Source: Leucosporidium creatinivorum (Eukaryota; Basidiomycota; Microbotryomycetes; Leucosporidiales; Leucosporidiaceae). Taken from it: a DNA stretch of 64,000 nt. Positions 18,438-64,000 of this stretch are shown here, piece after piece. Every line of letters starts with the position of its first letter. Within the stretch, counting starts at the first letter, position 1. The translations under genes and the position numbers were made by a program. The stretch lies in contig BCKL01000001.1 in NCBI GenBank assembly GCA_001600635.1, positions 89,550 through 153,549 on the forward strand. The letters are read 5' to 3'. The notes under the pieces are model-generated. The model saw only the letters and a list, made by a program, of their open reading frames with translations. It ran no database searches and was not told the DNA's origin.

Positions 18438-19596
18438 TCGGCTAAGGTAGAGCAGAGGTTCTAGTGTAGCAGGGGGCAGATCGGTGGCCGAAAGGAATGC
18501 TGATGCGATGAGATGCAGAAATGCGACGACGTAGCAGGAGGAAGAGGAGGGGCGGGCAGCGAATCTAATCCGGCTTGGCTCCGACCACGTCTTTGGCTCG
18601 CTTCGCTTCTCGACTCGCCGGCAGATCGATCTACAGAGGAGGATTTTGGAAAGCTGCTGGACCCCTACCAAGCCTCGCCTCTCCTCCCTCCGACCTCGCT
18701 CGAACTGCCTCTCGTCAACCGGCTTGGGCGCGCTGAGGAAGAGCTGTACACGACTGCTGCTGGTCGCACGAGCTGTACTGAGCGAGAAGGTGAGCTTCCT
18801 GATCTTGCGGTGCTGTCCGAGGTCTGTAGGCGCGTCTCTCGTCGAGTTTGGGCCTCACGACGAGCGCTGAGCCCGTGGAGCGCCAGCGAGGCCGGCTGCT
18901 CAGGATAGCGGGCTAATGCTATCGAGGACGAAGAGGGTTCCAGCTGACCGACTTCCATCTGCTCAGACTGCTCGTCTGCTGCACCTTCGAAGCTTTACCG
19001 GTCGCGCTCGTTCGCCCCAAGCGCCGAAGGTGAACTCCGCTGTTCGTGGTGCATCACACGCAGCTCGCTGATCTTCGACGTTTCAAACAGCTCTCCCTCT
19101 CCCTCCCCCTCCTCACCGACCCCAATGCCCGACGCCGAAGCTTCCCCTCCCGACGCCGAGCTCGCTTAAAGTCGATGGAGACGAAGGAGGAGGGATTCGG
19201 CGACTCGCGCCTTGGTAGTCTCCTACGCTCCCGACGTCTCTCCTGCGACCTTGAAGCTTTGCCCACGGACGACGAAGAGAGATGGATCAGCGTCCGCTCA
19301 TGCTCGGAGTGACACACTACATCGGTCGCCTGCACCTTTCCCCTCGGCTTGCTCGCTGCTCGACCTCGCTTCTCGCTGAACTTTCCAGTCTTCGCTGCTC
19401 TTGCTCGGTCGAGAGGGAAGATGGAGTGATATCGCGGTCACATTAGCAACCAAGTGGCTGACCGTGGGTGAGGGGGATAGCTCGAGAGAGCTCGAGTCTC
19501 GCAAAAGGGAGAAGAAGAGAGGGAGGGTACACAGAGGCGGGGGTAAAGCAAGGGGGGAAAGATCTATCGAGCCGAGGGAAAGAAGAGACGAGCTAC
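18438..19596. other. intergenic, 1.2 kb
   Basis: This lies upstream of the MAPEG paralog and downstream of eEF3. No gene is supported. A segment near 18590-18640 (TCTTTGGCTCGCTTCGCTTC) weakly resembles the start of the F-box leader repeats near 24497, 55745 and 62929, and could be a decayed relic of one. Confidence 0.4.
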
Positions 19597-23613: not shown

Positions 23614-23860
23614 GTAGCTTGGTAGCTGTGGTTGGCGAGCGAGATGGGAAAGTCGAGATTGTGCGGGTTTTGCGAGTGGCGAGAGAGAAGGGTTTCGGGA
23701 GGGGCAGAGAAGAGCGAAGAGGGTACAATGGTTAGCTACCGCTCCAAAATAGTTCCCTACAATCATCCTGCACCACGAAACCGCCGCCAATACGATGTAA
23801 TGAGGCTTCGAACGTACGATTAAAGAAGAATGCGACGGGGAGGTCTGGGTTTTGAAGCGT
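23614..23860 (-). promoter_or_regulatory. eEF3 promoter and 5' leader
   Basis: Upstream of the eEF3 start on the minus strand, ending where the direct repeat begins at 23861. The repeat therefore sits about 250 bases from a highly expressed housekeeping gene. No clear TATA box was identified. Confidence 0.4.
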
Positions 23861-24318
23861 CTAGAGTGGCTGTCGAAGCGAGTCTAGGTGTGGGCGGAGG
23901 GGAGAGAGGTACAGGAAGCCTTCTAGAGGTAACTGTCCGTAGGAAGAGAGGGAGGAGAGAAGCCGGGGGAAGGGGGGAGGAGAAGAGAGATTTGGCTGTA
24001 AAAAATCGAACTGGCCGCCTCCGGCAGCTCCAGGCTCGCCCACCCTCGAATCGCTCCTAAATCAGCTACATAGCCAGCTACAGAAGCACCACAGCCATAC
24101 ACAACTCGAAAGATCGTATTGCAGCTCTCTCCTTGCAATTCGCGCCAACCCTTCGGCGAAGGCTGCTGCTCGCTGCCAGCTTCGAACGTTTCGCATCTTG
24201 CGCCTCCAGCCCAAGGTCATCTCTATACGAGGATAGCAGCGAGTCAACCCGAGAGTTCCGAGCTTGTCTGAGCAGTTGGAAGCTCGTTAGAGCCGACTGT
24301 GGCCCAGTTCGCCGAGAA
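23861..24318. repeat. direct repeat, copy A (~458 bases)
   Basis: Copy A matches copy B (26373-26830), 2512 bases away in the same orientation. Over the first ~425 bases I can find one substitution; the last ~30 bases diverge. Inside are a GA-rich tract and paired AGCTACAG/AGCTACAT motifs near 24062-24080. No transposase, terminal inverted repeat or target-site duplication is visible. The pair flanks the F-box-like gene, so the unit looks like a recent segmental duplication. Confidence 0.9.
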
Positions 24319-24496
24319 GGCCCCTTTTTGAGCAAGTGCGGCACAGAAGCATCCGCAGTTGATGTACAGCGACGCAATAAGACGAGTAAAGCAACATGCT
24401 TCGTTAGAAGTAGCTGCAACTATCCCCTACAGCGTGAGATGTCGAAACTGACCTCTCGGCGAGGTTTGAGCTGCTCGCAGAGTTCGCTCCCACCAC

Positions 24497-25061
24497 ATCT
24501 TGGCTCGTCTCGCTTCTTCAACTCGTCGCGGCATATCAGTCTACACACAGACCTGTCCTTGCTCACTCAAGCTCAGCCGTGTGGCGCCTCTCGCTGGGCT
24601 TCGACCGCGCTCTCGTCGCGCTCTCTCGAACCGCTGGAATAGAGCTCTAAGGACTAGGCCGGAGCTGCTGCACGCCGCAGATATACCTGACGAGCTCTAG
24701 GTAAGCTTTCTCACTCTGTGACCCCGTATCCTCGGAGCGTTTGGTAGAGGGATAAACGACATTAAACCCTGGAGCGCGTTGAGCAAAAGCGACGGGCACT
24801 GGGATGGGCTACAGACGATGCGACGCAGCTTGGGGCCGAGGTGAGATCTGTAGTGGACTAACACTGACTTCCGCTTGCTTTCACTCGACCAGATCCCGTT
24901 CACTCGCTCGGCGAAGCTCGCTCGCTTCCTTCTTCCCCAAGCGCCGCTCCAGCGTCCTCTAGGTGAGCTCAGCTGAGGCAGAGCGCCTCGAGAAACAGGA
25001 TCATAACGTTTCATCTCACTGCAGGCTCCCGCCGACCCCCCTCTTCTCCTCTCTGGCCGAC
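24497..25061 (+). promoter_or_regulatory. F-box family leader, copy 1
   Basis: Non-coding leader homologous to 55745-56303 and, more distantly, 62929-63267. Shared landmarks are CTTGGCTCGTCTCGC at the left, GAGCTCTAAGGACTAGG near 24642, a first intron (donor GTAAGCTTTCTC at about 24700, acceptor TCGACCAG near 24892), GGGATGGGCTACAGACGATG, and a second intron (donor at about 24962, acceptor CACTGCAG at about 25023) just before the ATG. Two conserved 5'-UTR introns imply that the leader is transcribed and probably still promoter-active. Confidence 0.75.
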
Positions 25062-26245
25062 ATGTCCTCCGCCGAAGCTGCCTCCACCGCTCGCCTCCCC
25101 TCCTCATCTCCTCGCCTACCCCTCGAGCTCATCACCGCCATCTTCGGAAAAGCTTACAAGCCGTTCGAAGCGAGCTACGACCCAGCCGCACGGAGCGGGC
25201 TCGTCTCACGCTACTCGGCCAAGCTCTGCCTCGTCAACCGAGAGCTACTTCCCATCGCCCGCCGCCTCCTCTACCAGGAGCTCGTCATACAAGTCGTGCC
25301 GTGGAAGGCGTATCTCGAATCTGGGGCGGAATCACAGGAGGCCCACCTCATGTGCATGATTCCCGCGCTCATGTCGGGCTTGCTGAGACGATTAGCCAAC
25401 GCCGAGTTGGTGCGCAGCGTTCGATTCCGGCAGCGTGGACGGGCGAGGAAGAGCAGAGACTGCTCTCCTTTGCGCATGTGCTGCTGCGACGGTGCACCAG
25501 AGCGACATCCTTTCGCCTCAGCATCGACAACGTCGAGCTTTCCCCGATGGCAGCTCGGGTCGCCTTGAACCTACTTCGCCCAGATCTTGCGGAAGGATTG
25601 CAAGAGTTGGCGATACCCTACATGGGTAGTCACGAGAACGGCCTCGTCCTCTCCAGATTGCCGGCTCTACGCCATCTCACTTTGCTCGGCACCCACGGCA
25701 CGGCCTTCGACGAGCAATCCTCTCAGCCTCCCCACTTCCCCTTCCAACTTGCCTCGCTCAAAATCACCAGAGGTATTACCCTCAGCACACTCCACGACAT
25801 CGCCTCCCACTCCCTCACCTCACTCCAGCACCTCACCCTTCCTTCGGAGCTCCTACTCGCCGACCCGACCTTCCTACCTCGACTCACCGTCCTTCAAACA
25901 CTGAAGATCCACCTCGACTTCCCTCCCCTGGAACCCCTCCTCTTCGACATCATCTCTCGCTGTCCCTCCATCCACAATCTCGTCCTCGTCGACTCGTACG
26001 GTTCTCGCCCCGAGCCTCTCCTCGACATCCCACCGAACATCACCTCGCTCGTCCTCGACTGCCTGAGATACGACCAGATGGCTATCTACAACCTAGTTGC
26101 TAGCAACAGGTATCCTAACTTGCGGAGCCTCGCCTTCCGGTTAAAGGAGTGGAGTCAGCTGGAGCGCTTCGTAGTTGAGAAGGCCGGCGCCGAGCGAGGG
26201 CTTTCGTTGAAGCATGTAGACAGAGGTAGTTTGATGCAGCTGTAG
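25062..26245 (+). pseudogene. F-box-like protein gene, frameshifted
   Basis: The N-terminus has the basidiomycete F-box-like signature (SPRLPLELITAIFGKAYKPF ... AKLCLVNRELLPIARRLLYQ). The C-terminal two thirds are leucine-rich-repeat-like (LQELAIPYMGSHENGL, LPALRHLTLLGTHG, VLQTLKIHLDFPPLEPLL). The two parts are in different frames: the first frame is good to about 25430 and the second from about 25432. No intron of credible length joins them (the only GT...AG pair is about 24 bases). F-box proteins are substrate receptors of SCF ubiquitin ligases. Paralogs lie at 54268-55387, 56304-57464 and 63268. It is either a pseudogene or carries a sequence error; the intact leader argues that the damage is recent. 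Confidence 0.65.
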
Positions 26246-26372
26246 ATCATTTTACATTGACTAGAGGCTATCGTCGGGGACACTTCGGGCTACAGCGTCA
26301 GGGTTCGAAAGTCACGAGAGCCAATTGCTCCGCGCCCTGCTCGGCGACCGCTGCGAACGTCTGGCGAAGCCT

Positions 26373-26830
26373 CTAGAGTGGCTGTCGAAGCGATTCTAGG
26401 TGTGGGCGGAGGGGAGAGAGGTACAGGAAGCCTTCTAGAGGTAACTGTCCGTAGGAAGAGAGGGAGGAGAGAAGCCGGGGGAAGGGGGGAGGAGAAGAGA
26501 GATTTGGCTGTAAAAAATCGAACTGGCCGCCTCCGGCAGCTCCAGGCTCGCCCACCCTCGAATCGCTCCTAAATCAGCTACATAGCCAGCTACAGAAGCA
26601 CCACAGCCATACACAACTCGAAAGATCGTATTGCAGCTCTCTCCTTGCAATTCGCGCCAACCCTTCGGCGAAGGCTGCTGCTCGCTGCCAGCTTCGAACG
26701 TTTCGCATCTTGCGCCTCCAGCCCAAGGTCATCTCTATACGAGGATAGCAGCGAGTCAACCCGAGAGTTCCGAGCTTGTCTGAGCAGTTGGAAGCTCGCT
26801 GGAGCCGACTCTGGACCCGTTCGCCGAAGG
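26373..26830. repeat. direct repeat, copy B (~458 bases)
   Basis: Direct copy of 23861-24318, placed between the end of the F-box-like gene and the 3' end of the decarboxylase gene. The sequence is essentially identical across the GA-rich tract and the AGCTACATAGCCAGCTACAG segment; it diverges after the shared GAAGCTCG. Confidence 0.9.
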
Positions 26831-54267: not shown

Positions 54268-55387
54268 CTACTCGTACCTCCATTCGTCTAAGTCTCTATC
54301 CCACCAAACGGGCCTTATACCTCGTTCCCTACAGGCCTCGGCGACCTCAGCCCGCTTCTCCAGCGTCCATACGGCCCCCTCCCACCAATCATCAAAGGAC
54401 AACAACTTCAATGCTTGAGGTGCTTGTCGTGCGTAGTCGAGTAGACAGCTGGCGCAGCACTCTCCGTCCGAGAGGTCGAGGTGGGTGATGGCGACGGGTA
54501 GGTGAAGGAGGAGGTCGAGGGTGAGATTGCGCTCCAGGTCGCCGACTTCGATGAGATGGAGGTGGCGCAGCGAGGGGAAGGCGTGGATGTAGATAAGGGT
54601 CGAATCGACATCAATGTCGTCCCAAGCGTTGAAGTCGACGCTGAGGTAGGAGAGTTGATTGAACGATTCAAGGCTCTTTGGGTTCGGCGCTAGTTGAGTG
54701 AGGTAGTCGTAGCGAAGTGTGAGGCGGCGGAGTGAGGAAGCCGAAGAGAGGAAGATGGAGGAAAGGGGGTGTAGTCCTCGCTCGGCCCCTGGAATTTCAG
54801 GGAGGAGAGAGCGAATGGGAAAGGACCGGAGAGGCAGTCGGCGGGAAGGCGGGAAGAGGGGGCTCGAATAACGAGCGTCCTGAGGCGGTGTAGACTTGAA
54901 AGTAGTGGTATAAACTCTTCGTCGAATAATCGATGGCGAGCACTTCGAGCTTGAGTTCGAGGCCGGCCACAGCTCCGCCGAGGATGGAGCGACCCTGGGC
55001 AGAGACTTCTTCGAGCTCTAGCCAACGCAGGTTGGAGCATGCTCGGAAGAGCTGGCGGATGTTGGACACGACGAGCGAAGGATATCGACACGACCTGCGG
55101 TAGAGGGTGAGTCTACGGACGTGAATTGCGAGCTGAGGTCGACCTATGAGCGTGGCGAGGAGCGTCTGACGAGACGGGATGCGGGCGCCCTGTATGTCCA
55201 TATTTCCGTCCGAACCGCCGTCCTCCGCGTCGAGCTCGATGATTAGGTGGCGGTAGAGCGATGCCTGCGCGGGGATGGCCAGCGACTTCGAGACGAGGCA
55301 GAGACCGGCTGCCTCAGCAGCTCCAGCATCCAGTATTGCGAGGTCGACAATATCCTGCATCAGCTCGAGTGGTAGCCTCGGCGACAT
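54268..55387 (-). pseudogene. F-box-like protein gene with frame breaks
   Basis: The N-terminus MSPRLPLELMQDIVDLAILD ... GLCLVSKSLAIPAQASLYRH is F-box-like. Leucine-rich sequence follows (LVVSNIRQLFRACSNLRWLE, LKLEVLAIDYS). The protein-like reading then moves to a second frame (FIPLLSSLHRLRTLVIRAP) and a third (ASSLRRLTLRYDYLTQLAPN ... HLDLSDGECCASCLLDYA), ending at a TAG at 54268-54270. No credible introns join the frames, so at least two frameshifts are implied. Upstream, GTGAGT at 55495 and CCGCAG near 55442 look like a 5'-UTR intron. It is head to head with the paralog at 56304. Confidence 0.6.
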
Positions 55388-55744
55388 GGCTGGGAGGTGG
55401 AGCTGAGAGCGAGTGCCGAGGTCGTGGATTCGGAGAGCTGCGGGGAAAGCAAGGGTCGGTAGGGTGTAGACGAGCTGCACGATGATATCACTCACCTCGG
55501 AAGACGAGGTAAAACCGAACAGCAGCGCTCAAACCGCCGTACGGACAGCGATGCTCGTCGAGGGAGAGCGAACCGGGTTTCAAAGAGAAGGGGCTGGTCT
55601 AGTACAGCCTAGCAGGATGACCTTATCTTAGTTATAGTCTCGGCGATGCGGGAGCTGAGCGACGAGTCGAAGACGAGGTAGCGGCAGGAGCGAGAAAGGC
55701 CAGAAGCGATTCGCTCGTAGAGCCAAGGTTGAGCTCCTCCTACA
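55388..55744. promoter_or_regulatory. shared upstream region of two divergent F-box-like genes
   Basis: Contains the probable 5'-UTR intron of the leftward gene (about 55442-55495) and otherwise unremarkable sequence leading to the conserved leader of the rightward gene. Confidence 0.4.
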
Positions 55745-56303
55745 TCTTTGGCTCGTCTCGGCTACTTCTAATCGCGTACGGGATAGTGGACTATAGAAGG
55801 ACTCGCGTGTGCTGTACCAAGCTCTACCACCGGACTAGCTCTCGCTAAGCTTCCGACATCTCGTCGCGCTATTTCGAGCCGCTGGAATTGAGCTCTAGGA
55901 CTAGGCCGAAGCTGCTGCACGCTACAGAGATACCTGACAAGCTTTAGGTAAGCTTTCTCGCTCTGTTACCGTGTGTCCTCCAACCGTTTGAAACGACCTT
56001 TAAACCTGGAGCGCGTTGAGCAAAAGTAACGGGCGCTGGGATGGGCTACAGACGATGCGACGCAGCTTGGGGCCGAAATGAGATCTGTAGTGGACTAAGA
56101 CTGACCTCCGGTGCTTTCACTCGACCAGATTCCGTCCATTCGCTCGCTCGGCGAAGCTTGCCCGCTTCCTTCTTCCTATCCAACGCCGCTCCAGCATCCT
56201 CAAGGTGAGCCCGACTGAGGCAGAGCATTTGCAGAAACGAGAGTCTGACATTACATCTTACTACAGCCTTTCGCCGACCTCCAGATACCCTGCTCTCGCC
56301 GAC
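55745..56303 (+). promoter_or_regulatory. F-box family leader, copy 2
   Basis: Homologous to the leader at 24497-25061. Shared blocks include TTTGGCTCGTCTCG, GAGCTCTAGGACTAGG, GTAAGCTTTCTC, CTGGAGCGCGTTGAGCAAAA, GGGATGGGCTACAGACGATG, GAGATCTGTAGTGGACTAA, TCACTCGACCAGAT and GACATGTCCTCCGCCGAA over the start codon. Both 5'-UTR introns are retained (donors near 55949 and 56203, acceptors near 56129 and 56266). A third, more distant copy lies at 62929-63267. Confidence 0.78.
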
Positions 56304-57464
56304 ATGTCCTCCGCCGAATCCTCCCCCTCGCCTCCGCCCTCATCGCCTCGCCTTCCTCTCGAGCTCCTCGCCGCCATCTTCGAAGAAACGTACAAACCGC
56401 CCAGTACCTACACCTTCAACATCTCCAACTACTCTTCCAAGCTCTGTCTCATCAATCACGCTCTCCTCCCCATCGCTCGGCGCCTGCTCTACGGCAGGCT
56501 CACCTTCGACATCAGCGTCCTGAAACCCTGAGGGGAGATAGGCGTAGGATGGCCTTTCCACGGTCCTGTCCCGGATACGACGGTGGACTCGCACGCCGAT
56601 GTGATCCAGCCTGTGTTGAAGGCCCGACCCGACCTCGCCGCCTTTGTGCGCTCCATCTCAATCAAGCTGGACCACGTGGATTGGGCGACGGCGCGATGGG
56701 GATGTGAGGAGGAACTTCTATTTGCGGAAGTTGAGGGGCTCTTGAGCCTTTGCCCCAACACCACCGCTTTGCGCGTGGAAGTCGAGCCGGACCAGGAGTC
56801 GCTCACGGCGGCGTTTGGGGAAAGGATGGGCAATCTCGCCGTCAGCGAAGAGCTGGTGGAGCTAGATGTCCCCTACGACGGAGCCGGAAGCCTACGGCTC
56901 GCCTCGAGGATGCCGTTGCTCCGCCGCCTCGCGCTTCGGGAGTACTGCTCGGCGAAGGACCAACTCGACATCCCCACCACCTTCCCCTTCCAACTCACTT
57001 CCCTCGAGATCGAAGCCGACCTCACCCTACGCGCTTTCCACGCCGTAACTTCCACCTCGCATCACTCCCTTCGGCATCTTAGCGTTCACGCCTCCCCCCT
57101 CGTGGACGACATGTCCCTCCTGACGCCCTTTCGTTCCCTACAATCTCTTACCATTGATCTCGGATGGATCGAAGAGGGCGCAATTGCTCAACTCAGTCTC
57201 ACTCTCTCCCAAGCAACCACTCTCCGCATCCTCGGTCTCGAGTACGGCCACAATGTCGACCTCAACCTCGCCGACCTCATTCCCTCAAGCATCACCACAT
57301 TACGCCTCACCGACTCCGTTACCGCAAAACAGCTCTACCAATATATCTTTTGGGCCATTCATTTCTATCTGCGCGTGGTTTCTCGCCAGAGCTGGCACGA
57401 GGGCGAAAGAGAGGAGCTAAGTGAGGCGTGTACCGAGGCCGGGTTGCTGTTGGTGACACATTGA
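56304..57464 (+). pseudogene. F-box-like protein gene with an in-frame stop
   Basis: Starts MSSAES with the F-box-like segment SPRLPLELLAAIFEETYKPP ... SSKLCLINHALLPIARRLLY. One TGA at 56529-56531 follows DISVLKP. The same frame then continues open for about 310 codons of leucine-rich sequence (VRSISIKLDHVDWA, EGLLSLCPNTTALRVEVEPD, LTSLEIEADLTLRAFHAVTS, TTLRILGLEYGHNVDLNLAD) to the stop at 57462-57464. No intron of reasonable form removes the TGA. A single nonsense change, readthrough or a sequence error could explain it. Its first codons match the paralog at 25062 (MSSAE). Confidence 0.65.
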
Positions 57465-57564
57465 AGGCTCAGAAGTTTTGCGTAGACTTGGGGCTTGAAC
57501 TGGCTAGCCCACTTGTGCGCTCGTATAAGAGGGATGGACGACGAGAGAATGAGAGCCGGGCGCC

Positions 57565-58130
57565 GAGCGAAGGTGAAGATCAGGTTTTGTGTGTGTCGTC
57601 AGTCGCCGCCCGCGAAGGGTAACGTCGGTGACAATAAATATAAAGCATCACGTCTCGGCATTGGTCGAGTGGAGGGAGGTGCGGGAGAGGGAGGGGAGGG
57701 AGACGAGCGAAGCTTACGAGTTGCGAGGGGTTCGAACGAGGGCGACGAGTTGCCTGAGTAGGGGAGGTCTGCGGAGGAGAAGGATGAAAAAAGTCAGCGC
57801 TAGCTTGTCGAAGCTCAAAAGCTGCTCCCTCTCCACCCTCCTCGACTCGAACTCGTGACTTCGGCGATCGCATCAGGGATTGAGTAGTAGTGAATATGCT
57901 CCTCATAGACCAGCCCCTGCGTACAGGGATGATGCTGCTGGGTCGGATGAACAGAATTCTATATAGTTATCCTCATCGCGATTGCTCGAAGAAACGAGTC
58001 GAGTCGAGTGGCGCCGAGAGCTCAAAGAGAGGCGGCGGGGAAGGAGAGGGGGACGGGGCAGCTATAACAGAACGCCCGACTGACCTCCAGCTGAAGATCA
58101 AGTCTCCGAGTTCGCCTGCGAAGCTAGCGG
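57565..58130. repeat. inverted repeat, left arm (~566 bases)
   Basis: Reverse complement of 59831-60418 with a few percent mismatch and one ~25-base length difference (near 58020 against 59945-59970). The arm nearest the loop reads, in reverse complement, as the last codons and stop of the RCAN gene (PLASQANSET then TGA, against PLASQEYSET), so this arm is an inverted duplicate of the RCAN 3' end and its downstream flank. A 108-codon frame without demonstrated function stays open in both arms. Confidence 0.92.
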
Positions 58131-58580
58131 AGACCCTGCTCGGCGCAGGAGAATAAGCCAGCTCGGTCTGCAGCTTTTCAAAACCCGTGGAGGAGATGCT
58201 GGCAGCTCAAGCGCTCAAGCGCCTGCTCTCCGGTCTCCCACAGTTAGCGGAGACTTCGCCGTGAGATCTCCTCCCAGAGGAAAGATCGCCGAAAGCCTCG
58301 CCGAGCATGCACTGGTCCCGATTGGGACCGCCGCCTCGCCGTTGAGCCGCGAAAGCAGCGTAATCGAAAGATGATGGTGTTGCAGAGCAAGTGATCTGCA
58401 CGGCCCAAAGTGTCCTCGTTGAGCGTACAAGGACCGCTGAGCTTGACAAAAGCGAGCAAGTAGCGGAGCACTCGGCGCGGCTCCAGCTAGCTCGGGAGAG
58501 CAAGAGAGGTCAATCAGAGTGTATTGCGAGATTCCTGCCCCATCCTCTCGCCTTCCAAGCCAAAGCCGAACGTAGCATTG
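58131..58580. promoter_or_regulatory. RCAN upstream region
   Basis: 450 bases between the left inverted-repeat arm and the RCAN start codon. No coding sequence is supported. This is the only unique-sequence promoter available to the RCAN gene. Confidence 0.4.
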
Positions 58581-59863
58581 ATGACGGCGACAGGCGAGGG
58601 CCAGGGGCGCTCGCTCGTGAGCTCGACCATCGCTTGCCTCCGCCCGCTTCGCCTGCTTTCGACTCCGACTCGAGACTACCTGGAAAGCACTACAGCGACG
58701 ATCTACCGCTGCTCAGACGACCTCGGACCAACCTACAGCAGCCACTCTCGCCCAGTCATGGTGACGCCGACCAACTCGCTCATCCTCTTGCTACCGCCGT
58801 CGCTCTTCTCGCCGGCGTTGCTGCCCATGTTTGAAGCTCATTTCGCCTCGTACGGCTCCATGGTGCTGTGGACCCCGCTGGAGAAGCTCGGACGTGTGCT
58901 CGTCGCTTACGAGGAGGTGGACGGCGCGACCGAAGCTCGGAGAGAGATGGATGGATTCGTCTGGGAGGCCGAGGGAGAAGCTACAGAACCCGAAGCTGCT
59001 ACTACGCTACCGGAGAGCGATGTAGGGTGAGTCCTTGCTATTTCGCACCCCACCACCGCTGCGCTAGAAAACCATCCCGACGCGCCCGCTCACCTTTCTT
59101 TCTCCTACCCACCACTGCTCCCGCCTCCTTCGACATCATGTCGTGATACAGGCTACCTCTACGAGCCTTCTTCGGACCTCCCCTCACCCTACCATTACCC
59201 TCGCTCCACTCTACGCTCCTTAGCGTTCCCGAGCTCGGCCGCAATTTTCTCATTTCCCCTCCCGGCTCTCCGCCTGTAGGATGGGAGCAGGTCCTCGAGG
59301 AAGCTCCGAATAGTCAAGCACTACCGGAGGACGGCGGCTGGGCCGACGAGCTGGCACGGGCACTTCGCTTTTTGAGCACGGAGGGCGGCGGCGACGACGA
59401 GAACGATGCTGCTGGGCTGCAGGAAGCGCCGACACTCACGGCCGCCAATCCTTCATCGTATGGCGCACCTCAAGAGTCGACTACATCCCTCCTCATCCCT
59501 CCCTCGGCGACCGTCTCTCGCACGTCCATCACCGTTTCCACTCCTCCCACCCTTTCGCACCCTTCTTCCGCCGCGCCCGGCACCGACACTCCACCACCGA
59601 ACGCACAGAAAATTGGAGCCGTCAAGGCTACCATCGAATCGATGCTAGGACGGAAACGGAGCTATAGCGATTTGGGATTGGGAGCGAGGACCGCCGCTGG
59701 CTCGGCGGAGGGGCCTACTGAGGCGCCGACGGCCATGGACGAGGACGCACCGAGCTTGCAGATCGAAGAGGCGCCGCCAACGCTGGGGTTGGGCATGCCT
59801 AGGACGTCCATTACGCCCACGGCGCGGCCGCCGCTGGCTTCGCAGGAGTACTCGGAGACTTGA
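58581..59863 (+). CDS. RCN1: calcipressin / regulator of calcineurin (RCAN)
   Basis: Two exons: 58581-59026 and 59152-59863, 385 aa. The N-terminal RRM-like domain starts near TNSLILLLPPSLFSPALLPM, continues to FASYGSMVLWTPLEKLGRVL, and resumes across the intron (LPLRAFFGPPLTLPLPSLHS). The family signature is VPELGRNFLISPPGSPPVGW, whose serines are the GSK3/MAPK phospho-site pair, followed by WEQVLEEAPN. The C-terminus is Ser/Thr/Pro-rich and includes SMLGRKRSYSDLGLG. RCAN binds and modulates calcineurin (Cbp1 in Cryptococcus, Rcn1 in yeast). The start is uncertain; 58758 (MVTPTNS) is an alternative. The last ~10 codons lie inside the right inverted-repeat arm. Confidence 0.9.
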
Positions 59864-60418
59864 TCTTCAGCTGGAGGTCAGTCGGGCGTTCTGTTATAGC
59901 TGCCCCGTGCCCCCTCCTTTCCCGCCGCCTCTCCTCGAGCTTCTGTCCGGCGGCTCGTCGAGCTCTCGGCGCCACTCGACTCGACTTGTTTCTTCGAGCA
60001 ATCGCGATGAGGATAATTATATAGATTTCTGTTCATCCGACCCAGCAGCATCATCCCTGTACGCAGGGGCTGGTCTATGAGGAGCATATTCACTACTACT
60101 CAATCACTGATGCGATCGCCGAAGTCACGAGTTCGAGTCGAGGAGGGTGGAGAGGGAGCAGCTTTTGAGCTTCGACGAGCTAGCGCTGACTTTTTTCATC
60201 CTTCTCCTTCGCAGACCTCCCCTACTCAGGCAACTCGTCGCCCTCGTTCGCACCCCTCGCAACTCGTAAGCTTCGCTCGTCTCCCTCCCCTCCCTCTCCC
60301 GCACCTCCCTCCACTCGACCAATGCCGAGACGTGATGCTTTATATTTATTGTCACCGACGTTACCCTTCGCGGGCGGCGACTGACGACAAACACAAAACC
60401 TGATCTCCACCTTCGCTC
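59831..60418. repeat. inverted repeat, right arm (~588 bases)
   Basis: Partner of 57565-58130. It includes the RCAN stop codon (59861-59863), its presumed 3'-UTR and flank. Splice-like signals (CTTCGCAG ending at about 60211 and GTAAGC near 60257) are present in both arms, but no gene around them could be built. Confidence 0.92.
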
Positions 60419-61607
60419 ACCCCTTCGCAACTCAACTCGCTCGGCCGTATTCGAGCATGAGCTGACCTCGTCTTTCTCGTCGCTCACAGGCATCTTCATC
60501 GTCGTTCCAAACTCGCCTTCTCCGGCCTCTACTCTCCCGCCTGCACTACGTTAGTCCTCCTCCTTACTTCGGCCCACGTTCTCCTTCATCTCGGCGCTCG
60601 GCTCTCGACGATTGGGAGTGATGAATAGCCCTGATCACAGACCTGTTCTCCGCACCCTGTCCACCGTTCGAGGTTTCTCACGGCTGGATGGGGCCATGGA
60701 AGAGAATCGGCATTGGCTGACCCTTTCGTCGATGGAGCTGGCTCCGAGTTGAAGGAGAAGACAAATGACTGCGAGGAGAGCTATCGCTGACATCATTCTC
60801 TTCTTTCCGCGTTCAACAGGACCTCAAACACACCTCAACGCTTATCTTGCAGCCGATCCTTTCGCCGCCTCCCCGTAAGGCGCCCTCCCTTCATCCTTCC
60901 CAGCCCTCGGCAAGCTCGCTCGCTCTCGCATCCTTTTTGTGATGATACAGACGTTCACAGACCTGATCGCCGTCTAGCCTCGTCGACCATTCGAGGTATC
61001 TCATGGTTCGGCGAGGCCGTGGTTGATAATAATGCTCGCCAAGAGACCACTGATAGATTAGGATGCGGAGCACACGAGCGGGCTGGGAGCAAAACATTAG
61101 TACCTGAACACTCTGGAATCGAGCTGACCTTCGTCCTCGCCCTTTTCTAGCAGGCCACTTCGCCGATGGAATCTCGGTCGAGGAAGCGATGGCACAGTGT
61201 CGCTGATAGGTGCTGCAACAGCTTAGTCGTTACTTTCTCATTCTTGACGGACCTTGCGAGCGCCAGCGAGTCGTAAATAAGAGCTCCCTGCGATCCAGTG
61301 CCTTCGCCGAGTAGTCGGCCGATTCGCTGAACCGCCAAAGACAGAGAACGACCATCTGCGGCTGTCGATATCGCTCGCACATCTCCTCAGTCGGCTGGGC
61401 GCAGGTTCGAAGAAGCGCGCGAGTAACGGTGCTGAGTCGATGTATCCAGCAAGCGCTCAGGTCGACTCAGCGGCGGCGGGCTGCTCGCGAACGCGTCGCT
61501 GCAGAAGCACAGTTCTCGAGGTGAAATATAAGCGGGGGAACCGTTCTATTCGAGCTCAAAGGATCTATGCAAATGCTCTATATACAGTCTAGAACGTCGA
61601 GCCTCGT
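60419..61607. other. intergenic, 1.2 kb, with a degenerate local duplication
   Basis: No gene supported. Two stretches resemble each other: near 60637-60690 and 60955-61010, both CACAGACCTG then CCG...TCGTCC/GACCRTTCGAGGT and TCTCAYGG. They may be remnants of duplicated exons or leader sequence. The right end is the 3' flank of the small secreted protein gene. Confidence 0.4.
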
Positions 61608-62271
61608 TCAAGCGGTGCAGAGGGCGGAGGAAGCGCCGACCGAGAAGAGAGTTCCCTGGGCGAGGTTGTGCTCCTGGGTGGCCGAGACGGTGATGGGGAG
61701 GGTGATTGCGGCGATACCGCTACCGCAGACGTTGTCGCTGGAGGTGAAGACGAGTCAGCTTCGTTCTCGCTGCTCGGCTCGGCTCGGCGTCGACGTCGTC
61801 CAAGCTCAGAGCTCCTGGAGCGCGCTACATAGACCACAGCAGATGCCGAGACGAGCTACAGATGAGAGAGAATGTCACTCACTAGCTGAAGGCGCAGTTG
61901 GCGGACTTGCAAGCGACGATCTGGTCGACACCAGCTCCGGCGGCGTTGGTGTAGGGAAGGCAAGCTCCCGAGGCGACGGTGGTGGTCGAGGCGTCCTTGT
62001 AGCTGACGGCGACGATCTGTTGACATGATGCAAACGCGGAGGGCACGCGAAGTCGACGTGAGATGAGGTAGAAAGGCGAAGAAAGTCAGCTTTGTCTGTC
62101 GCCGAGCAGTCGGACTCGGAGAGAAGCAAGATTTACGGCACCGGCAGACTGGCAGCTGGCCTGCAGCTGAGCAAAGGTGGGAGCCATAGCAGCACGCTGA
62201 ACGATGGGCTGAGGAGCGGCGTAGGCGACCGAGGCGGCGGCAAGAGCGGCGAAGGGGAGGGAGAAGTGCAT
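61608..62271 (-). CDS. small secreted protein, 132 aa
   Basis: Three exons: 62137-62271, 61883-62016 and 61608-61737. A clear signal peptide (HFSLPFAALAAASVAYAAPQ) is cut near residue 19-20. The mature part has a short pro-like segment (PIVQR) and four to six Cys (SCQSAGA, GACLPYTNAAG, ACKSANCAFS, DNVCGSG, SSALCTA), giving likely disulphides, and no membrane anchor. I do not recognise a named family; the pattern resembles small secreted proteins of basidiomycetes. The first intron has a GTAAAT donor. Possible roles (cell wall, effector-like) are guesses. Confidence 0.8.
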
Positions 62272-62928
62272 AATGTTCGGCGGAGGTTTTGAGGTGGTGA
62301 AGGGAGTTGGTGAAGGTGTGTGAAGTGAGTAGAGTGAAGGAGAAAGAGCGGGAGCGCGACTTGAGCTCGATTTTGTATCCCAACGAGATCTGTAGGTGAG
62401 GTCATGAGAAGGCCGACCCTTCCGACCAAGCCGGCAAAGGAGGTGCTGAGGGCAAACTAAGTTTGGGGATACAGTCGGGGCTGAAGGGAAGGCTTGATGA
62501 AAGTCTGGACTCTGCCACAACACCTGGAAAGCGTTGAAAGGCTTTCCTACGCCTGCAGGAAGGTAGGCTCGGCGCATCGCTCAGCCCAGCTGCTCTGGGG
62601 CTTGTGCTCCTTAGTGGTGCAGTCTGAAAGAGCGAGATGCGCGCCGAGGATTGTACTGCACCGCAGCGTGAGGTCATGCCCCCCTCTACACCAGAGCGAC
62701 GAGGGCATCATCCTCGCGCGACCCTTCGCGACTCGAGCTGAGGGGGCGTTTAGCGCGAGCCTCCCCGCAGGATGAAGGAAGAAAGATTGTCGTGGTTGTC
62801 GTAGCTACTTAAGAGCTCTGTAAGATGGTACAGACTTGCGAGAGAAGTGAGAGTTCTGTCTCGAGCTGTCTCGAGAAAGGAGGAGAGAGGCGTCGCGTCC
62901 AACGAAAGCTTTCCACTTCTGCCACATC
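62272..62928. other. divergent intergenic region
   Basis: Promoter of the small secreted protein on the left and upstream flank of an F-box leader on the right. GTAGCTAC, an 8-base palindrome, lies near 62802. No gene is supported. Confidence 0.4.
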
Positions 62929-63267
62929 CTTGCTCGTCTCGCTGCTCGACTCGCTACGGACGACAAAGCTACAGAAAGACTCGCACTTGCTCTACTAAGC
63001 TCCACTACCGGACCAGCTCTCGCTCAGCTTTCGACGCCTTTCGTCGCGTGCTCTCAACTCGCCGGAAACGAGCTCAAAGGATTAGATCGAAGCTGCTCAG
63101 CGCTGGCTGAGCGGAAAAGTCATGACGCGTTCGAACGGCTGGAGAAGCCTGCAGAGCAGGTTCAAGGATGTCTGTGGCGCATCAGCATTATGTCTTGCAT
63201 ATAGAGCATATGAGCTGACTTTATCTCCTTTCCCCCCACCAGCAGCCTCAGAACACCAAGTTCGGCG
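62929..63267 (+). promoter_or_regulatory. F-box family leader, copy 3 (diverged, shorter)
   Basis: Begins CTTGCTCGTCTCGC and continues with ACTACCGGACCAGCTCTCGC, CAGCTTTCGACG and CTCGTCGCG-like blocks, then GAGCTCAAAGGATTAG, in the same order as copy 2. The long middle part of copies 1 and 2 is missing or unrecognisable. Confidence 0.6.
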
Positions 63268-64000
63268 ATGTCTCGGTCCTCCTCGCCCGATGGGCTCTCG
63301 TCTTCCTCCGAGGTGAGCTACATCATTGCTCTGCTTGCTCAGGGAACATCAAATTGATTCTTCATACCCACAGAGCTCCGCCTCGTCGTATACCTCCTCT
63401 CGCGACCGCTTTGCCCTCCCGCCATCCGAAGCCGCCCGCCGTTTACCCCTCGAGCTGCTCGGAATGATCACCACAGAAGCTGCCAAAATTATGGACGACT
63501 CTCCCGGCGGCGGTTGGCGTGAGGCTGGCCTCTGCCTCGTTTCCAGGTCGCTCCTCCCCTTCGCGCGCGCCGGCCTTTACCACACCATCTGCGCCTACCA
63601 CTGCAGAGACTACGACAGCGAGGAGGTCGATGCGACGGAAGCGTTCGACCTTAATGACCCTTCTGCCGGGTTTTCGGACGACAGCAACGTCAGGCGGACG
63701 CTGAAGGAGAACCCTTCGCTCGGACGTCTCTGCCGAAAGCTCAGCGTCGACGTAGGATACTCGGACTACCAGGAGGACCTGGAAGACCATCCCGTGTGGA
63801 CGCGCGTCAAGGAGCTGCTGTACGCCTGTCCTGACGTCCAGAGCTTGTCTCTCTCCTCGGACGACAGCTACGCCGAGCTAGTCCTCGACACCATTTTCGC
63901 CGAGCTCGCACAGCAAGGATGGGGCTCGCAGCTCCGGTCCCTCACGGCAAGCTTCACGGGACCTGGACTCCTCTCCTTTCTCAGTAAACTTCCCCACTTG
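63268..64000 (+). CDS. F-box-like protein gene, runs off the window edge
   Basis: Exon 1 is 63268-63312 (MSRSSSPDGLSSSSE); exon 2 starts at 63374 and is open to the window edge. The F-box-like segment is RRLPLELLGMITTEAAKIMD ... GLCLVSRSLLPFARAGLYHT. Leucine-rich sequence follows (LGRLCRKLSVDVGYSDYQED, VKELLYACPDVQSLSLSSDD). This is the only family member here with no visible damage, though only part is seen. It is a likely substrate receptor of an SCF ubiquitin ligase; the target is unknown. Unlike the others it has an intron within the coding region after codon 15. Confidence 0.7.

Follow-up and report, generated by a model that had tools for sequence, protein, structure and literature searches.

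In the basidiomycete Leucosporidium creatinivorum we found a clustered family of putative F-box/leucine-rich repeat (LRR) genes that probably evolves by duplication of two-part units (a leader and the receptor body behind it), by the rejoining of leaders to other bodies and by the random death of copies. The window analysed, 64,000 nt in length and 59% in G+C, is C1:89550-153549 (contig BCKL01000001.1) of a 27.7 Mb genome in 63 contigs. It holds four members of the family, which match each other in tblastn searches inside the window. The apparent recombination of the leader onto differing bodies is the strongest feature of the system and was invisible in a preliminary description made from the letters of the window. 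The four genes are listed below; positions without a contig name are those of the window.

25062-26245 (C1:114611-115794), plus strand: F-box/LRR gene A, with one frame change near 25430.
55387-54268 (C1:143817-144936), minus strand: F-box/LRR gene B, with two frame changes.
56304-57464 (C1:145853-147013), plus strand: F-box/LRR gene C, with an in-frame TGA at 56529-56531.
63268 to C1:154083, past the window end (64000), plus strand: F-box/LRR gene D, open, with a likely intron at 63313-63373.

The preliminary description had placed four F-box/leucine-rich genes here, one with a frameshift, one with a single TGA, one with at least two frame changes and one open, and all of this was borne out. 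In gene A the conserved N-terminal frame runs to about 25433 and the C-terminal frame, which is a different one, starts at about 25430. Gene B consists of three overlapping pieces in three frames and is the head-to-head partner of gene C, whose frame is open apart from the single TGA. As part of the overall reading, which we hold to be probable as a whole, genes A, B and C would be recently dead members and gene D an open one.

Five protein searches of the genome, merged, gave at least 77 related loci, with 45 inside C1:7-717 kb and 32 elsewhere, including five further along C1. Premature stops inside the match were found in 18 of the 45 cluster loci and in 1 of the 32 others (Fisher p = 1.3e-4). 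After correction for matched length, the cluster accounts for 22 of 23 stops, against an expectation of 70% (p = 0.003), and among loci whose match extends to about 600 nt or beyond there were stops in 16 of 41 cluster loci compared with 0 of 14 elsewhere (p = 0.005). Twenty genes were read individually in C1:1-260000; nine are uninterrupted from the F-box onwards, up to their end, while 11 are broken, eight by stops and three (A, B and g018) with frame changes. Protein identity between pairs extends from 82-89% down to less than 30%, and synonymous sites are saturated in most of the pairs compared (synonymous divergence, dS, about 0.8-1.4), with young duplicate pairs beside them. The family thus combines clustered paralogues of differing age (45 of 77 loci in 0.72 Mb) with a large share of inactivated copies (18 of 45 loci; 11 of 20 genes in the stretch read). 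These counts, which the preliminary description had proposed as a check, support its suggestion of a birth-and-death family, and a set of only four single-copy orthologs, which would have spoken against it, is not what the genome contains.

The breaks appear to be recent and scattered. Cluster loci with no, one, two and three stops number 27, 15, 2 and 1, compared with 27.6, 13.5, 3.3 and 0.6 under a Poisson distribution (mean 0.49, variance 0.47). Under random substitution a gene would gain about 34 stops per unit divergence, and the load therefore corresponds to about 0.014 neutral substitutions per site. Because this is far below the dS of most pairs, the broken copies are most simply young deaths of old genes. 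The same two observations, loci that look equally exposed and a small load set against mostly saturated pairs, are also what would be seen if the whole array had lately become useless, after a shift in host, habitat or sexual cycle, and were now decaying at once. We regard this as fairly unlikely, since module copies without a body (described below) and copies with two or three breaks suggest earlier deaths, and since the young intact pair g372/g481 has a ratio of nonsynonymous to synonymous divergence (dN/dS) near 0.5 (0.057/0.116), which is neither neutral nor strongly constrained. Steady turnover, decay of the whole array and strain-specific null alleles look the same in one genome.

Introns do not account for the breaks. 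A search for introns with a GTRNGY donor found none across the TGA of gene C or the approximate break points of gene B, and at the 11 breaks that could be placed on the family profile the DNA exceeds the profile by at most 18 nt; at the g409 stop the gap is even 54 nt, compared with 63 nt in the profile. Introns were accordingly ruled out for gene B, on its overlapping pieces and the missing donor, and for gene C and nine other profile-placed breaks. They stay weakly open for gene A, in which a single weak 47-nt GT-AG candidate fits the frame. Splicing of this candidate would delete family-matching sequence, and likely introns nearby are longer (61-62 nt; about 61 nt in the window generally), so we treated gene A as broken, with some reserve. 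With the same reserve, introns at every break, which the preliminary description had named as a way in which it could fail, were not found. Sequencing errors or undetected introns, for which the gene A candidate may speak, are extremely improbable as a general cause: the stops are concentrated in the cluster (18 of 45 loci against 1 of 32 relatives elsewhere), stops rather than frame changes account for eight of the 11 broken copies in C1:1-260000, and the surplus of DNA at the placed breaks is small.

Most broken copies as read have one in-frame stop with a conserved frame on both sides, and 15 of the 18 stop-bearing cluster loci carry a single stop over the matched stretch. Such copies might still be used through stop-codon read-through, RNA editing or the production of two short proteins. 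We consider this very unlikely. All three stop codons occur among the 22 (TGA 10, TAG 8, TAA 4), in varied places and with no obvious common context; the stops per locus match random hits; A and B carry frame changes instead; and the stop of g227 stands where the nearest intact paralogue has Glu, which adenosine-to-inosine editing would not restore. TGA is over-represented (10 of 22, compared with an expected quarter), and C-to-T change at CGA codons would explain the excess.

We next consider what the genes encode. Among ten proteins or pieces scanned with Pfam, eight gave F-box, F-box-like or LRR scores, all below threshold, and two gave none. A profile of 15 intact members matches LRR proteins in the Protein Data Bank, including TIR1 and COI1. 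The predicted model of one intact member (predicted template modelling score 0.81) has repeated helix-strand units, and a Foldseek search with this model ranked FBXL2 highest, followed by TIR1, and had SKP2, COI1 and FBXL17 within the first eight. The C-terminal leucine-rich repeats are thus seen both in the profile matches to LRR chains and in the repeat units of the model, and for the N-terminal F-box there are the two top-ranking F-box/LRR chains by fold and Pfam F-box scores under the cut-offs. The family most likely consists of putative substrate receptors of SCF (SKP1-cullin-F-box) ubiquitin ligases, which choose the targets; judging from the fold, the F-box would dock on SKP1 and the repeats would pick the target. 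The FBXL-like fold agrees with the earlier suggestion of a substrate-receptor repertoire. Like the FBXL-type receptors SKP2, FBXL2, FBXL17, TIR1 and COI1, the predicted model has N-terminal helices followed by helix-strand leucine-rich repeats. It differs from them in its low sequence similarity, below the Pfam cut-offs, in its putative SKP1 binding and in belonging to a clustered set of paralogues.

The leader was recognized as a module of about 320 bp that lies between head-to-head partners and points at one of the two. There are five such gene pairs, g008/g009, g018/g020, g030/g031, g079/g080 and B/C. A profile trained on eight copies (an orphan at 67 kb and the seven upstream of g009, g018, g030, g080, C, A and D) gave 26 matches at E <= 1e-3 in C1:1-260000, and the best match in reversed sequence had E 0.009. 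We found the module upstream and in the same orientation in 14 of the 20 genes, seven of them outside the training set (g053, g181, g185, g187, g222, g227 and g248). In 12 of the 14 it lies 371-458 bp from the start codon, the other two distances being 182 bp (D) and 318 bp (g053). The genes without a module are g008, g020, g031, g079, B and g257. Further along the cluster there is a copy before the gene at 423 kb (L024). The copies in the window, and other features around the four genes, are as follows.

18520-18748, plus strand: module copy without a detected F-box body, a possible relic (48.7 bits).
24459-24658, plus strand: gene A module (only its right-hand part), 404 bp from the start codon; in the profile set.
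55582-55903, plus strand: module in the B-C interval, oriented towards C, 401 bp from the C start codon.
62873-63086, plus strand: module of gene D, 182 bp before the first-exon start codon.
55948-56266, plus strand: 5' leader of gene C, with likely introns in the untranslated region at 56205-56266 and, by eye, another starting at 55948.
23854-24315, plus strand: direct repeat to the left of the gene A unit, 462 bp, 98.5% identical to 26366-26827.
26366-26827, plus strand: direct repeat to the right of the gene A unit, 462 bp.

Gene A and its leader thus lie between direct repeats and might be an inserted unit; no further copy of the 462-bp repeat longer than 200 nt was found in a self-comparison of C1:1-260000. 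Two whole-genome DNA searches, which are less sensitive than the local profile, each found the module in six places, all on C1 and all at F-box genes or the 67-kb orphan, and a mobile element as its source was rejected on this basis. Nor was an RNA element found in the leader: Rfam gave no matches in five sources, and the covariation term was unfavourable, with change on both sides in 3 of 40 pairs.

The leaders are much more alike than the bodies they precede. Among the 91 pairs of the 14 genes, 50 had a leader match, which was at least 80 nt long in 34. In these 34 the median identity of the leader is 76%, a figure favoured by BLAST, which selects the best-matching local block; for the third codon positions of the bodies the median is 41% (32.5% by chance). 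Leader identity exceeds third-position identity by at least 10 points in 33 of the 34 pairs, the exception being the young pair g181/g227. Between A and C, identity is 83-93% from -400 to -100 and 70% over the final 100 nt upstream of the gene; inside the gene it is 79% in the first 100 nt, 61% in the next and 31-62% thereafter.

Such a gradient could also result from purifying selection on a long promoter and 5' untranslated region, without any need for recombination. The kept orientation of the module and its narrow range of distances from the start codon (12 of the 14 genes) fit with this, as does the fact that the module core is the best-conserved block between groups whose gene-proximal DNA is unalignable. 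However, the histories of leader and body disagree. We applied the approximately unbiased (AU) test to the seven T-group genes at C1:181-258 kb and found that upstream DNA groups g222, g185 and g248 and rejects {g222,g181,g227,g187} (AU p = 0.0006), whereas the proteins reject {g222,g248,g185} (AU p = 7e-10). In addition, g227 switches partner. From -400 to -200 its closer match is g187 (92-94% identity, against 32-56% for g181); from +100 to +500 the closer match is g181 (86-100%, against 44-70% for g187). Going by these identities g227 is a mosaic, and a crossover would find homology at -150 to +50, because g181 and g187 are both 74-89% identical to it there. Selection on one promoter would not produce a switch of partner of this kind or trees that reject each other's groupings, and we judge selection without recombination to be unlikely. 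Purifying selection on the module core may act besides recombination.

Together, these observations suggest how the array might be built. The family would grow as units, each a receptor body with its leader upstream, are duplicated. Copies that otherwise differ would still share homology in the conserved leader and around the start codon, where ectopic crossing-over or gene conversion could join similar leaders to different bodies, as the mosaics in one subgroup suggest. Most bodies would then have diverged to saturation. Single copies are presumably dispensable, and point mutations would kill them randomly across the cluster, in keeping with the Poisson spread of stops.

Several points weigh against this reading or limit it. 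The F-box and LRR scores are below the Pfam cut-offs in all eight of the ten scanned proteins with any match, and Foldseek also returned NLRs (nucleotide-binding leucine-rich repeat proteins), ribonuclease inhibitors and cytoplasmic lattice chains, with TM-scores of 0.3-0.5; the fold therefore supports the general architecture and not the detail. The queries for related loci were all derived from the cluster, and the matched stretches are shorter for relatives outside it. Gene-level reading covers the read parts of C1:1-260000. Twelve of the 26 module matches, mostly weak ones, are not followed by an F-box gene in that orientation. They comprise the 67-kb orphan (212 bits), the copy at window 18520-18748 and ten weaker matches, of which three are the reverse of a counted copy. 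Outside C1, a weak match (E 2.5e-5) precedes an F-box gene on C2 (L005). In the tree tests, the grouping {g248,g257} favoured by the proteins was not rejected by upstream DNA (p = 0.12), and the groups tested were named after the identity profiles had been seen, so the p-values are to be read accordingly. The Q/S conflict between leader and body is only suggestive (p = 0.081) and, being non-significant, is not claimed. Lastly, part of the similarity among the leaders of g185, g222 and g248 travels with a neighbouring, near-identical gene for N-terminal glutamine amidase, an enzyme of the N-degron pathway. This gene (Pfam E 4.6e-22 for the one copy scanned) lies near g185, g222, g248 and g257, and at the DNA level the query copy shares 96%, 92% and 81% identity with the other three.

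C1:184-185 kb (L040), upstream of an F-box gene: glutamine amidase copy.
C1:224-225 kb (L044), upstream of an F-box gene: glutamine amidase copy.
C1:247-248 kb (L046), upstream of an F-box gene: glutamine amidase copy.
C1:259-260 kb (L047), upstream of an F-box gene: glutamine amidase copy.

Duplication or conversion of the amidase gene carries upstream DNA with it and so explains part of the similarity, but not the g227 mosaic.

Two further observations concern neighbouring genes. BTB-domain proteins are another class of ubiquitin-ligase adaptors, and BTB-type genes in inverted duplicate segments at C1:231 and 243 kb (L045 and L046) have weak module-like matches nearby (E 2e-6 and 3e-7). BTB genes cluster elsewhere, with 8 of 29 matches at C21:109-136 kb and 4 of 29 at C3:1.43-1.52 Mb, which weighs against a promoter shared with them. 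In the window, inverted repeats of about 588 bp, 93.5% alike, occur at 57565-58130 and 59831-60418; between them, at about 58764-59863, lies a calcipressin-like gene whose Pfam Calcipressin score (E 4e-4) is just below the cut-off.

Fungal NWD/het incompatibility repertoires likewise consist of receptor paralogues whose repeats are diversified by recombination. They belong to another protein class, and an incompatibility function of the present cluster would be conjectural. Birth and death of F-box genes has already been described in plants and nematodes; the variant seen here is a clustered array with a shared, apparently recombining leader. The plant F-box superfamily is under genomic drift (Hua et al. 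2011, PMC3030570) and resembles the present family in its many loci, lineage-specific copies and many pseudogenes with frameshifts or premature stops, whereas here we have a fungus, one dominant cluster and a leader common to synonymously saturated copies. The Caenorhabditis F-box family shows similar tandem, species-specific expansion and loss, and the abstract of the study describes exon/intron changes and not a shared leader recombined with different bodies (PMC8665587). By Pfam counts, the six Pucciniomycotina compared in Table 3 of PMC4469406 have 7-18 F-box proteins per genome; the figure given there for Agaricomycetes is 43. Our Pfam F-box search of this genome found 32 places, none of them in the cluster; as its members fall below the cut-off, a family of this sort would be overlooked in Pfam counts. 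F-box genes above the cut-off form local groups at C16:282-521 kb, C4:122-223 kb and C10:176-279 kb. No paper on this cluster was found in the literature searched, which is not proof of its absence.

A role of the cluster in self/non-self recognition is a guess. An STE3-type receptor lies on C25 and a homeodomain gene on C24, and linkage of the cluster, which is on C1, to the mating-type genes was rejected on position; contigs are not chromosomes, however, and the loci may be linked over a distance. The STE3-type match (C25:435951-436283) holds one in-frame TAG, maybe within an intron. The cluster could be a working diversity system, in which the leader and start-codon zone would serve as a recombination adaptor that feeds new or reshuffled receptor bodies to an active promoter; we think this decidedly unlikely. 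If it were true, strains would carry differing sets of live and dead F-box receptors that recognise foreign or changing proteins, be they from non-self, viruses or host molecules, by a logic comparable to that of variable receptor repertoires elsewhere. With its small genome, dense receptor cluster, shared leader and visible mosaics, L. creatinivorum offers a system in which to ask whether drift or selection shapes such repertoires.

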